Assembly (NCBI GenBank): GCA_029248755.1
Contig: JAQWIR010000024.1
Location: 1 to 49,556 of the forward strand
Direction of reading: 5' to 3'
Origin: Porticoccaceae bacterium
Lineage (GTDB): Bacteria > Pseudomonadota > Gammaproteobacteria > Pseudomonadales > Porticoccaceae
Length of the DNA: 49,556 nt
Part shown: piece after piece, positions 35,990 to 40,383 of the stretch
Layout: each line of letters starts with the position of its first letter
Position numbering within the stretch: position 1 is the stretch's first letter
Program-made: the position numbers and the translations under genes
Notes under the pieces: model-generated
Told to the model about the DNA's origin: nothing
Databases searched by the model: none
What the model saw: only the letters and a program-made list of their open reading frames with translations

Positions 35990-36289
35990 GTGACTATACA
36001 AACCATTATTGATGGTCTAAAAGAAAAAATCGGCGAAGATTGCGGCCTCGGCTCAGTGGTTAAGTTTGATTTTGGTGACCAGGGAAGTGTTATTTTAGAT
36101 GCTACCCAGGTTCCTAATACAGTTTCTACTGAAGGTGCAGATCCAGATTGCACTATGATAATTAGTATTGAAAACTTTATGGCCATGGCTGAAGGTAGTT
36201 TAGATGGTGTTGCCGCATTTATGACGGGTCGACTTAAGATTGAGGGCGAGATGGGTATTGCTATGAAATTGAGCGCTATCTTAACCTAA
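35990..36289 (+). CDS. Stand-alone SCP2 sterol-transfer domain protein
   Basis: The 99 residues match the SCP2 fold, with a FDFGDQGSVILDA strand pair, DPDCTMIISIENFMAMAEG and AAFMTGRLKIEGEMGIAMKL, the canonical end of the domain. Such proteins bind acyl-CoA or other lipids in a hydrophobic tunnel. The start is GTG with a good ribosome binding site (AAGGAG). It is 26 bases after the thiolase and likely co-transcribed, suggesting a lipid-handling accessory role. Confidence 0.88.
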   Translation: MTIQTIIDGLKEKIGEDCGLGSVVKFDFGDQGSVILDATQVPNTVSTEGADPDCTMIISIENFMAMAEGSLDGVAAFMTGRLKIEGEMGIAMKLSAILT

Positions 36290-36383
36290 TTATTAACGAT
36301 TTTTACCCTATTTTTAGAATCATTCACAAACTAACCATATTAAGAACTTTTCATTTTAATTAAAAAATTTAAATTTTCAAAAG

Positions 36384-36400
36384 TGGCATGATTTCTGCTT
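36384..36400 (+). promoter_or_regulatory. Sigma-54 promoter of the glucosylglycerate operon
   Basis: TGGCATGATTTCTGCTT fits the RpoN consensus TGGCACG-N4-TTGCW. GG is at 36385-36386 and GC at 36397-36398, exactly the required 12-base offset, and the site is very similar to enterobacterial glnAp2. It lies about 135 bases before the mpgP ATG, with a start site expected near 36410. Confidence 0.75.
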
Positions 36401-36425
36401 TAAAGCCAGATATAGAGATAATTTA

Positions 36426-36442
36426 ACGTTGATATTCAACGT
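36426..36442. promoter_or_regulatory. 7+7 perfect palindrome in the operon leader
   Basis: ACGTTGA-TAT-TCAACGT, just downstream of the predicted sigma-54 start. It is nested inside a second inverted pair, AAAGCC (36402-36407) and GGCTTT (36447-36452). This could be a repressor operator or an RNA stem-loop in the leader. The binding factor is not known. Confidence 0.5.
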
Positions 36443-36497
36443 ATAGGGCTTTGATGCTAACAACTGCTACCCGCTGGTTATACAGGGCAACTACTTT

Positions 36498-36516
36498 CCG
36501 CACCAAGATGGTGCGG
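36498..36516. promoter_or_regulatory. NtrC-like binding site
   Basis: CCGCACC-AAGAT-GGTGCGG is a perfect 7+7 dyad. Its core GCACCAAGATGGTGC matches the NtrC consensus (GCAC-N7-GTGC) and differs by one base from the strong enterobacterial glnA site as I remember it. It lies 17 bases before the mpgP ATG, downstream of the sigma-54 promoter. That is an unusual but workable place for an enhancer. It would also form a hairpin in mRNA. Confidence 0.65.
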
Positions 36517-36533
36517 GCTGGCGGGCTTGTCTA

Positions 36534-37385
36534 ATGTCTTTAAACCCAATTAGCCCAGCACTTATTTTTACCGATCTCGATGGTAGTTTACTAGATCACG
36601 ATTGCTATAGCTTTGAGCCGGTGATACCTCTATTAGAGACTTTAGAATCTAAACTAATTCCTGTCATCCCCATAACCAGTAAAACCTTTGCTGAAGTTGA
36701 ACAGTTACGCATCAGTTTAAATAATCATCACCCCTTTATTATTGAAAATGGTGCGGCCATTGCTATCCCTAAAGATTACTTTTCATCTATGCCTGAGGAT
36801 TGCTGTGACAAATCTGGTTTTTGGGTGATTTCCAATGGTCGTTCACGACAACATTGGGATCAGTTACTAGAAGAAAATGCACAAGACTTTATAGGTGAAT
36901 TTGAAACCTTTACCCAAATTGTATCCACTAGGGGAATTAAAGGGATTCAGGATATTACTGGCTTAGGTTTTGAACAGGCTGAACTGAGTCATCAAAGGGA
37001 TTTTAGTGAGCCGGTTCATTGGCTGGGTACCCAGCAACGCAAACAAGAATTTATACACAAATTATCGGCGGCAGGTGCAACCCTTCTTCAGGGAGGTCGC
37101 TTTCTTTCTGTTGGGGATAAGGTTGATAAAGGCAGTGCACTTGTTCAACTGACTAAATTCTATCAGCAGCACCAATCACTCTGCAATATCCATACACTGG
37201 CTATTGGGGATAGTGGCAATGATATTAACATGTTGGAAGTAGCTTCTAGCGCAATCATTATTCGTTCAAAAACACATCCGGCTCCGACCTTAACCCGAAA
37301 AAGCAATCTACTATCTAGCAATGCTTATGGGCCTGAGGGATGGACTGAGACTGTATCTTTGTGGCTTAAAAATTTTCATGAATAG
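36534..37385 (+). CDS. Mannosyl/glucosyl-3-phosphoglycerate phosphatase (MpgP family)
   Basis: A HAD-superfamily phosphatase of 283 residues. Motif I is DLDGSLL with D14 and D16, then motif II ITSKTFAE and IIENGAAI. The Cof/MpgP-type cap follows, and motif IV GDSGNDINML lies near 225. It is related to MpgP and YedP. Next to a GT81 synthase it should remove the phosphate from glucosyl-3-phosphoglycerate to yield glucosylglycerate. The order phosphatase-synthase-phosphorylase with gaps of 12 and 19 bases indicates one operon, preceded by the sigma-54/NtrC-type region. Confidence 0.87.
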   Translation: MSLNPISPALIFTDLDGSLLDHDCYSFEPVIPLLETLESKLIPVIPITSKTFAEVEQLRISLNNHHPFIIENGAAIAIPKDYFSSMPEDCCDKSGFWVISNGRSRQHWDQLLEENAQDFIGEFETFTQIVSTRGIKGIQDITGLGFEQAELSHQRDFSEPVHWLGTQQRKQEFIHKLSAAGATLLQGGRFLSVGDKVDKGSALVQLTKFYQQHQSLCNIHTLAIGDSGNDINMLEVASSAIIIRSKTHPAPTLTRKSNLLSSNAYGPEGWTETVSLWLKNFHE

Positions 37386-37397
37386 GTAGTAAAAATT

Positions 37398-38624
37398 ATG
37401 GGTGATTTTCATCAAAATGGCATTATTACAACTTTACACAATTTATCTAGACGACCACTGGAGGCAATGGAATCTGAACTGGTTGAATTCTCTAAGAAAA
37501 GACCTCTGGGGTTAATCCTGCCCTCTCTTTATTCTGAACTTGAGGGTGAGGCAATGCCTTTGATTATTTCAGAGCTTACAAAGGTGCCGTATTTAAATCA
37601 GATTGTAATCGGCTTAGACCGTGCCGATGAAAATCAGTACCGAGATGCGCTCAAGTTCTTTTCTGGATTACCCCAAGATTTTAGAGTGCTTTGGAATGAC
37701 GGGCCGAGGCTTAAGGCTTTAGATAAAAAACTTCAGGATCTAGATTTAGCGCCCAAAGAGCTAGGCAAGGGGCGCAATGTTTGGTATTGCATGGGCTATA
37801 TCTTAGCCTCTAATAAATCTGAATCTGTGGCTTTACATGACTGCGACATTGTTACTTATAATCGCGAATTACTCGCACGGCTAATTTACCCTGTCGCTAA
37901 TCCTTTGTTTAATTATGAGTTCTGTAAGGGTTATTACGCTCGGGTCGCTGATGGCAAAATTAATGGTCGCGTATCCCGCCTTTTGGTTTCACCCCTGCTA
38001 AGAGCCCTTAAAAAGACAGTAGGACATACCGATTATTTAAACTATATGGATAGTTATCGCTACCCATTAGCGGGGGAATTTTCGTTCCGTCGCGATGTGT
38101 TAAATGATATCCGCATTCCAAGTGACTGGGGTTTGGAAATTGGTGTCCTTTCAGAAATGTACCGCAATTACGCTAATAATCGACTTTGTCAGGTAGATAT
38201 TGCAGATACTTATGATCATAAGCATCAAAAACTTTCTCTCAATAACGATACCGATGGTCTTTCTAAGATGTCGATTGATATTGCTAAGGCGCTGTATAGA
38301 AAATTAGCGACTCAGGGTGAGGTATTTAGCCAAGAAGCCTTTAGATCGTTAAAAGCAACCTACTACCGTATGGCTTTGGATGTGATTGAGACCTGTCATA
38401 ACGACGCCATTATGAACGGTCTTACCTTGGATGTTCACCAAGAGGAACAGGCAGTGGAAATGTTCGCTGAAAATATTATGAAAGCCGGCGAATTGTTTTT
38501 TACCTGCCCCATGGAGCGACCATTTATTCCTAGCTGGAACCGAGTAGTCAGCGCGGTTCCAGATATATTTGAACAGCTAGTTCAGGCAGTAGAAGAAGAC
38601 CACAAAGAATTTAGCAATAGTTAA
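37398..38624 (+). CDS. gpgS: Glucosyl-3-phosphoglycerate synthase (GT81)
   Basis: Transfers glucose from a nucleotide sugar to 3-phosphoglycerate, the committed step to the compatible solute glucosylglycerate. The 408 residues have a GT-A fold. Visible are [31 protein letters not shown] (123-134), the metal-binding [10 protein letters not shown] with D148 and D150, and [28 protein letters not shown] follows. Mannosyl-3-phosphoglycerate synthase is the alternative, but the sequence type and the phosphorylase partner favour glucose. Confidence 0.88.
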
Positions 38625-38643: not shown

Positions 38644-40383
38644 ATGGCAGCTTTATTGAACCCACAAATCGAGCATCATCTTGCGACCATTTACAAAGGC
38701 ACTGAGGTTGCTGATTTAACGACTTTAACTAGTGATTTAATGGCACTTATGCGATTGGATAATGTAGAGCCTATTAAAAACCGTTATATTAATCACTGGG
38801 ACGAAAAGGACAGTGTTCTTATCTGCTATGGGGATAGTGTTTTACAACCACAACAAAAGCCATTAGCAACTTTAAAATCCTTTTTGGATACTTATAGCAA
38901 AGATATGATTGATGGCGTTCATATTCTGCCTTTCTACCCGTTTACCACTGATGATGGATTCTCTGTTCTTGATTATTCTAGCGTCAACCCTAGTTTAGGT
39001 GAGTGGGAAGATATTGTTGCTATAGCTGAGGATTATTCTTTAATGGCAGACTTGGTGATTAACCATTGTTCTGCTAGAAGCCTATGGTTCGATAACTTCA
39101 TTACAGATCGTGAACCTGGTCGAAATTTCTTTTTTACCGCAAGTCCGGAAGATGATTTAAGCGCGGTGGTTCGCCCTCGAACAAATGCCCTACTGCGTGA
39201 AGTTGAAACGGCTAAGGGGACTCAACATGTGTGGTGTACTTTTAGTCATGATCAGGTCGATTTGAATTTTAAAAATCCACAGGTACTCAAAGAATTTGTG
39301 GGTATTATCAGGCAATATCTAGATCATGGGGTTCGTACCTTTCGACTAGATGCCGTTGCTTTTTTATGGAAGGAAGTTGGAACTAACTGTCTAAACTTAG
39401 AGCAAACCCATGAGGTGGTTAGACTTTTACGGTCGTTGATTGAACAGGCTCGTCCCGATGCGATTATTATCACTGAAACTAATATTCCCAACCGCGAAAA
39501 CCTAGCCTACTTTGGTAATGCCAATGAAGCTCATTGCATCTATAACTTTTCACTACCACCCTTGTTAGTAAATACCCTTATTACAGGAAGTTGTGATCAT
39601 TTAAAACAGTGGATGATGAGTATGCCACCGGCTCGCAATGGTACGGCTTATTTTAATTTTATTGCATCTCATGATGGTATTGGTTTGCGCCCCGCTGAAG
39701 GTCTTTTAGAAGAACAAGAAATTGATAATTTAGTATCCACCATGCAACAGTTTGGCGGGCTAATTTCTTGGCGTACTGGTGAAAATGGTGATCGCAAAGC
39801 CTATGAGATCAATATTTCTTTATTTGATGCACTTCAAGGAACCAAGGATGGTGCTGATGAAAATGGGCTTCAGCGCTTTATATGCGCCCATGCCATTATG
39901 CTTGCTCTAGAGGGTATTCCTGGAATTTATATCCACAGTCTTATTGGCACTAGAAATGATTATCAGCGGGCTGAGAATAGTGGACATAATCGTGCTATCA
40001 ATCGTCATCAGTGGGATTATAAAGCCTTACAGCAAGTATTGGCGGATAAATCCAGCACTCACTATCAGATTTATAGTCGCTTAAAATCACTGATTAATAT
40101 TCGCTGTAATCAGTCGGCATTTCATCCTAACGCTACTCAATTTACCCTTCACTTGGGCTCTCAACTATTTGGCTTTTGGCGTCAGAGTATGGATCGCGTC
40201 CAGAGTATTTTTTGCATTAGTAATATCAGCAATCAAATTCAATGGTTAGAAATGTCTGATTTAAACTTAATTGACACAGAAGATTGGTTTGATTTAATTT
40301 CTGGTAATCAATATGGTGAAACAAGCCAAGTTATTGAGCTAAATCCTTATCAAACAGTATGGATTACCAATCTGCAAGCATAA
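38644..40383 (+). CDS. GH13 subfamily 18 phosphorylase, probably glucosylglycerate phosphorylase
   Basis: A sucrose-phosphorylase-like enzyme of 579 residues. Catalytic residues of GH13 are visible: the nucleophile D236 ([12 protein letters not shown]), the acid/base E278 (ITETNIPN) and the transition-state Asp D344 ([10 protein letters not shown]). [19 protein letters not shown], near the N-terminus, is typical of the sucrose/glucosylglycerate phosphorylase group. Context (GpgS and MpgP in the same operon) suggests it splits glucosylglycerate with phosphate to glucose 1-phosphate and glycerate, reversing the pathway. Sucrose phosphorylase or glucosylglycerol phosphorylase remain possible. 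Confidence 0.82.

Follow-up and report, generated by a model that had tools for sequence, protein, structure and literature searches.

A predicted NtrC/sigma-54 control region, with a candidate downstream enhancer, at a glucosylglycerate operon of marine Gammaproteobacteria

Promoters recognized by sigma-54 (RpoN) RNA polymerase share the consensus TGGCAYR-N4-TTGCW and require an activator. In the FlbD/ftr system of Caulobacter, and at similar flagellar enhancers, a sigma-54 activator acts about 100 bp downstream of the transcription start; we know of no natural case in which NtrC works from a downstream enhancer. Activators of sigma-54 promoters are described as usually binding about 100–150 bp upstream (PMC7057263), and the glnAp2 promoter of E. 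coli joins a -24/-12 element to an NtrC palindrome of the 17-bp type, with the consensus TGCACCAnnnTGGTGCA (PMC8743547). The operon considered here, from a 49,556-nucleotide stretch of DNA of a Porticoccaceae bacterium that was analysed as a whole (hereafter the window), resembles glnAp2 in possessing the same kinds of promoter and palindrome. Whereas the enhancer of glnAp2 lies upstream, the site in the window is a single clear one, lies downstream of the predicted start, and belongs to an osmolyte operon. The downstream position is shared with the Caulobacter system, although the activator, motif, and function all differ.

The osmolyte in question, glucosylglycerate, is tied to nitrogen limitation by physiology, and no regulator for it in Gammaproteobacteria was found in the literature searched. 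One group in which the tie is seen is the mycobacteria, which to our knowledge lack an NtrC/RpoN system. Glucosylglycerate accumulates in nitrogen-starved mycobacteria, and the available portion of the report names no regulator of its synthesis (PMC6608630). What increases on nitrogen limitation there is the solute considered here; mycobacteria degrade it with a hydrolase. Glucosylglycerate is also described as able to replace glutamate under nitrogen limitation, with low-nitrogen media seeming favourable, and such a replacement is recorded for marine cyanobacteria (Klahn et al. 2010, cited in PMC11009771); the logic of a nitrogen-free anion standing in for glutamate is the same, in a different phylum. 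The link between this solute and nitrogen limitation, as drawn in an earlier note on the window, agrees with both sources (PMC11009771 and PMC6608630, as far as their available text goes). The note had also stated that no example of direct NtrC/RpoN control was known, and this stands: no report of NtrC, RpoN, or sigma-54 control of glucosylglycerate genes was found among the open-licence papers listed, and a term search of the accessible text of two sigma-54 regulon papers (PMC12316311 and PMC3162934) gave nothing on such control. The parts are of known kinds; what is new is the target, the wide conservation, and a movable, partly intragenic downstream NtrC site.

The operon, its promoter element, and its palindrome

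The source genome (G000) is 1.65 Mb in size and 89% complete, and three of its genes run together on the same (+) strand as one operon. The first encodes a HAD phosphatase of the mannosyl/glucosyl-3-phosphoglycerate phosphatase family (36534..37385), the adjoining gene a glucosyl-3-phosphoglycerate synthase (GpgS; 37398..38624), and the third a GH13 phosphorylase of the sucrose/glucosylglycerol phosphorylase group (38644..40383). These enzyme names are family-level, with GpgS and the phosphorylase below curated cut-offs, and the families of the first two are right by best match. The phosphatase, for which a GpgP role is presumed, scores 190.5 bits with TIGR01486 (cut-off 164.75), while equivalog models score under their own cut-offs and the nearest solved relatives are mannosyl-3-phosphoglycerate phosphatases. 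The best NCBIfam match of GpgS is NF040724 (GpgS_Meth, E 8.6e-112), at 374 bits and so under the equivalog cut-off of 700, with no Pfam match and a weak match to a solved GpgS (E 2e-5). The GH13 enzyme is matched best by the sucrose phosphorylase model TIGR03852, under its cut-off, and has glucosylglycerol and sucrose phosphorylases as its best solved relatives; judged from the operon context, it is probably a glucosylglycerate phosphorylase. Relatives of the operon with 83–98% identical GpgS include the cultured HTCC2207, along with members of the Porticoccaceae/Cellvibrionales, and the source bacterium is placed in the SAR92 group because of this identity.

Upstream of the first gene, a sigma-54 (-24/-12) promoter element, TGGCATGATTTCTGCTT, is predicted on the + strand at about 36384–36399 (feature coordinates 36383..36400) from its sequence, its conservation, and a spacing control, and the -12 C at 36398, taken as the reference, puts the predicted transcription start near 36410. 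The element had been said to have the exact -24/-12 geometry, which is true of its GG-N10-GC spacing; one core base departs from the consensus (CTGC for TTGC). On a matrix trained on 18 glnA/ntrB/glnK promoters it scores 6.7 bits vs 18.7–26.2 for the training promoters themselves, a value reached about 275 times per Mb per strand, and it falls outside the top eight in the window. It does not closely resemble the genus's own nitrogen promoters, most of which have T where the window promoter has the C of CTGC. This low score is the main sequence argument against the control, and promoter strength may be reduced by the CTGC form. The promoter claim draws its strength instead from the presence of the element before the first gene in all 23 SAR92-clade loci, described below. 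A sigma-70 scan of 36250–36560 found two sites, one of them on the + strand, which is no more than in shuffled sequence.

Between the predicted start and the first gene lies a putative NtrC-type enhancer palindrome, CGCACCAAGATGGTGCG (17-bp form, 36499..36515), with the core dyad GCACCAAGATGGTGC at 36500–36514. Its centre falls at about +98, downstream of the predicted start as had been noted, and 18 bases separate it from the first ATG (36534). The earlier reading of the dyad as a fit to the NtrC consensus with correct spacing was likewise borne out, since CGCACCAAGATGGTGCG equals TGCACCAnnnTGGTGCA at 12 of the 14 specified bases, with two mismatches. On an NtrC matrix built from 20 glnA/ntrB sites of nine genomes, with the target operon excluded, the dyad scores 20.9 bits, a level reached once in 2 Mb of random sequence, and the runner-up in the 49.5-kb window scores 9.3.

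Genome-wide rates rest on fixed patterns, and matrix rates on random sequence. TGGCAYGN5TGCW occurs four times in the whole 1.65-Mb genome (control pattern, 0) and GCACCN5GGTGC in three places (control pattern, 1), and by our own arithmetic about 0.003 pairs of promoter and dyad within 200 bp would be expected by chance. The window contains one exact match to the promoter pattern, or three with one mismatch allowed (mean of shuffles, 3.65), and three matches to the consensus dyad with up to three mismatches (mean of shuffles, 2.12); because the counts with mismatches are like those of shuffles, relaxed patterns by themselves prove nothing.

The same motif is found upstream of glnA, ntrB, and glnK. 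At the glnA/ntrB promoters, the palindromes lie about 90–150 bp upstream, which is the classical layout, and glnA was confirmed by family in the source genome. All four genomes checked have held-out sites of 15.3–18.7 bits some 100 bp ahead of the glnK promoter; in each of the four a PII gene follows this promoter, and in the source genome it was confirmed by Pfam. That the target operon has a single clear NtrC site and no pair speaks against the control, although the ntrB promoters here likewise have one.

The dyad also falls inside a possible 26-codon leader ORF (36454..36534, + strand), which ends in a TAA that overlaps the first gene's ATG (TAATG). By our count, a small ORF that stops at the first-gene start or just past it is present in 17 of the 23 SAR92-clade leaders, which suggests translational coupling or a leader peptide.

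Regulators and conservation within the SAR92 clade

The regulators that such a region would need are encoded in the source genome. RpoN was found in 54 of the 56 genomes searched, the source genome included (PF04552, E 1.4e-66). The source genome also has adjacent genes for NtrB (NF008293, 337.4 bits, cut-off 240) and NtrC (TIGR01818, 726.8 bits, cut-off 558.6). Two close relatives, G008 (92% complete) and G014 (84%), each possess one strong PF00158 protein, which is NtrC by family, their other PF00158 matches being weak (E 2e-7 or worse), and both retain the operon promoter and the downstream NtrC-like site.

For conservation, 35 genomes of the same genus were searched and gpgS was found in 21, of which 20 were examined; together with three further named SAR92-like loci these make up 23, a set that leaves out G013, where gpgS is in two fragments. 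The promoter stretches of the 23 loci include no two that are identical. The form TGGCAYG-N4-CTGC is nonetheless present in every one, always with CTGC and no more than 330 bases ahead of the first gene, and a looser scan, in which GG-N10-GC was sought and then scored, picked the same element in 20 of the 23. Column conservation is 1.90 bits over the ten element columns vs 0.28 in the flanks, a figure that is partly circular in that the alignment pattern itself fixes those columns. Among the columns left free, the C of CTGC has 2.0 bits, the preceding base 1.6, the four spacer bases 0.8–1.6, and the following base 1.1.

In all 23 loci the best NtrC-like site is downstream of the promoter, centred at +87 to +163 and scoring 11.9–24.8 bits. 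Eight of these sites are weak, at 11.9–15.9 bits (L013–L017, L019, L020, and L023), and one half-site is degenerate in L012–L019. Within the 250 bp upstream of the promoter, no NtrC-like site above 2.5 bits was found in any of the 23, and the classical enhancer position 100–150 bp upstream is accordingly vacant throughout. The loss of element and dyad in close relatives, which the earlier note had named as grounds for rejecting its reading, was not seen: the promoter is kept in 23/23, each with a downstream NtrC-like site.

Some leaders contain further repeats. Just before the first gene, L012–L019 have an opposite repeat (GGTGC, 4–6 bases, GCACC) beside the NtrC-like site and overlapping the leader ORF, and L024–L026 have extra GCACCA/TGGTGC half-sites, at a spacing that is not that of NtrC, between the promoter and the main NtrC site.

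Distribution across Gammaproteobacteria

The wider survey covered the best 80 loci of 580 GpgS relatives, found by protein alone, with lineage labels that are our own. Counts over the 80 overstate independence, as the loci are related, were chosen by similarity, and come mostly from draft genomes. The threshold for an NtrC site was set at 16 bits and the promoter zone at -2100 to -700 of gpgS. A site of at least 16 bits is present in the promoter zone of 48 of the 80 loci, while six other zones have 0–1 of 72–80. Of 200 column-permuted matrices, six exceed one locus, one of them, the highest, with 48 and one with 16; the permuted matrix that gives 48 swaps two equivalent C columns and is therefore nearly the real one. 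For the promoter, TGGCAY-N5-YTGH was found in this zone at 54 of the 80 loci (53 once one coding match is removed), compared with 0–9 at seven other spacings; two control zones gave 3 and 1 at N5, and up to 9 at other spacings.

Several candidates were discarded as products of coding sequence. Three Hahella matches near the P-loop of a kinase were dropped as a coding coincidence, which reduces the 48 to 45, and the L186 promoter match, inside the DGTLLD codons of the phosphatase, was dropped as well, which takes the promoter count from 54 to 53 and the count of loci with both elements from 33 to 32. Alteromonas matches of 13–15 bits at TGCACAAAAATGGTTCA correspond to AQKWF codons and are below the 16-bit threshold.

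Of the best 80 loci, then, the NtrC site is present in 45, the promoter in 53, and the two together in 32, with the site downstream in 28 and upstream in 4; 35 are without a site of 16 bits, and 27 without a non-coding promoter match. Both elements with the site downstream were found in SAR92 (7/8), Haliea-like loci (4/5), Alteromonadaceae (13/26), unplaced loci (2/8), and Vibrio (2/2). The site is upstream in Shewanella (3/3) and in one of six Colwelliaceae loci (Thalassotalea), about 150–180 bp before the promoter. No counted pair was found in Oleispira (two loci), Oceanospirillaceae-like loci (six), Methylophaga (five), Hahella (four), or the single loci of Pseudoalteromonas, Reinekea, Pseudomaricurvus, Oleiphilaceae, and Psychromonas, although several pair-less lineages among the best 80 loci carry one element. 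The order's other families contributed 13 loci, of which only three have a site of at least 16 bits: upstream of a TGGTAC promoter in G040, downstream in G037, and upstream of a weak candidate in G039. Judged by these motifs, the predicted NtrC/sigma-54 control of the operon is widespread, but not universal.

In the 26 Alteromonadaceae loci (L138–L180), the operon promoter lies about 1750–1950 bp before gpgS, with TTGT or TTGA as the -12 box in 25 and CTGA in the remaining one, a consistent departure from the sigma-54 consensus across the 26.

In the Alteromonadaceae, Haliea, Methylophaga, and others, the operon starts with a kinase, and the dyad lies in its codons before the P-loop. The nearest solved relative of this kinase is D-glycerate 3-kinase (E 2e-21, for one Alteromonas protein), and no NCBIfam model passes. 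Such a position raises the question of coding coincidence, in which the dyad would arise by chance or merely mirror the codons of the leader ORF or the glycerate kinase. The dyad does overlap a small ORF in the window and the kinase codons of Alteromonas, and some weaker matches, TGCACAAAAATGGTTCA (Alteromonas) and GCACCAATATGGGGC (Hahella), do resemble coincidences of this kind. Codon choice, however, follows the DNA motif. The His within the dyad codons is CAC in 32 of 35 picks, against 183 CAC and 215 CAT in the same frames overall, and the three CAT cases (L137, L140, and L205) are ones in which the wrong histidine was picked. Where Ser precedes Ala, it is encoded by AGT in all 11 cases, compared with 155 of the 715 Ser codons of these frames; the residue before Ala varies (Gly, Ser, Asn, Arg, Asp), with the final T mostly kept. 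Moreover, glycerate kinases that lie off the operon are without the dyad in all seven genomes checked: in six SAR92 genomes the 700 bp upstream of the P-loop contain neither a promoter match nor a site scoring over 8.6 bits, and in G051 dyad and promoter are likewise absent. The dyad thus tracks the operon promoter rather than the protein. In the SAR92 leaders, too, the encoded peptide varies while the NtrC-like site stays, and we consider a chance or coding origin of the dyad extremely improbable. As a matter of gene order, all six SAR92 genomes checked have their glycerate kinase gene unlinked from the operon (G000:C13:5948-6802, L211, in the source genome).

A model of nitrogen control and its alternatives

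On the strength of these motifs, the operon is very probably a direct NtrC/RpoN target with a downstream enhancer. In the mechanism proposed, sigma-54 RNA polymerase would wait at 36384–36399 until, under nitrogen limitation, phosphorylated NtrC binds 36499–36515, about 98 bp downstream of the start, and loops back to open the promoter. The cell would then use a glucose nucleotide and 3-phosphoglycerate to make glucosylglycerate, an anionic osmolyte that contains no nitrogen, and the phosphorylase of the operon could recover it. The enhancer would in this case act from inside the transcribed region and be a real downstream enhancer. We infer NtrC binding, activation, the nitrogen response, and the exact substrates of the enzymes. 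An enhancer able to act through looping from either side is the simplest reading because an activator is required, the sole NtrC-like site seen is downstream, and some related operons have theirs upstream.

The earlier note had left the choice between a downstream enhancer and a roadblock, and the enhancer is the alternative now favoured, given the upstream site in Shewanella and Thalassotalea. Sites in transcribed DNA can block polymerase, so that NtrC might act as a roadblock or governor limiting transcription, with some other activator or an unseen upstream site providing the activation. Low-affinity sites at glnAp2 of E. coli have indeed been proposed as transcription-limiting in the part of that study available (PMC3870243). 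A roadblock would nevertheless leave activation unexplained, as an activator is needed and the 250 bp upstream show no site for one; the NtrC site is upstream in other lineages, and NtrC is the only strong activator found in G008 and G014. We regard this reading as unlikely, although it is conceivable that NtrC also has a limiting role besides activation. The palindrome might otherwise function as RNA rather than as a protein site, in the form of a leader hairpin controlling translation or termination. Located 18 bases ahead of the start codon, it can fold into a hairpin of 8 bp, and the leader is slightly stabler than its shuffles (z -2.05; 5 of 200 as stable). Yet the stem is disrupted in L008, a close relative (GCACC...GGGGC), no terminator-like site was found in 36250–36560, and Shewanella has the same motif ahead of the promoter, as do glnA, ntrB, and glnK, all of which makes a hairpin function distinctly improbable. 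The upstream location of the site in 4 of the 32 paired loci favours the enhancer over hairpin and roadblock alike.

It might also be asked whether a different enhancer-binding protein recognizes the dyad and activates the operon, for example on salt. The source genome does encode a second strong PF00158 sigma-54 activator, which has no receiver domain (C31:56707-57204, L073). In G008 (92% complete) and G014 (84% complete), no match to such a second activator was found, an absence that is not certain at that completeness, and both keep the promoter and the site; the dyad motif is, moreover, that of glnA and ntrB. A different protein in place of NtrC seems very unlikely. The L073 activator has similar-scoring matches in G005 and G010, and its gene adjoins one for a small secreted-looking protein.

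For marine Gammaproteobacteria more broadly, glucosylglycerate synthesis probably belongs to the NtrC/RpoN regulon, with an enhancer that, where the pair is seen, would be mostly downstream, would lie within the first gene in the Alteromonadaceae, and would have switched sides of the promoter in evolution. An enhancer on different sides by lineage offers a natural test of position dependence in NtrC activation, and the proposal provides a concrete and cheaply testable regulator and site in ocean bacteria, some of them cultured (HTCC2207, Alteromonas, and Shewanella). If it is true, the regulator of nitrogen starvation would also help to set the cell's choice of osmolyte.
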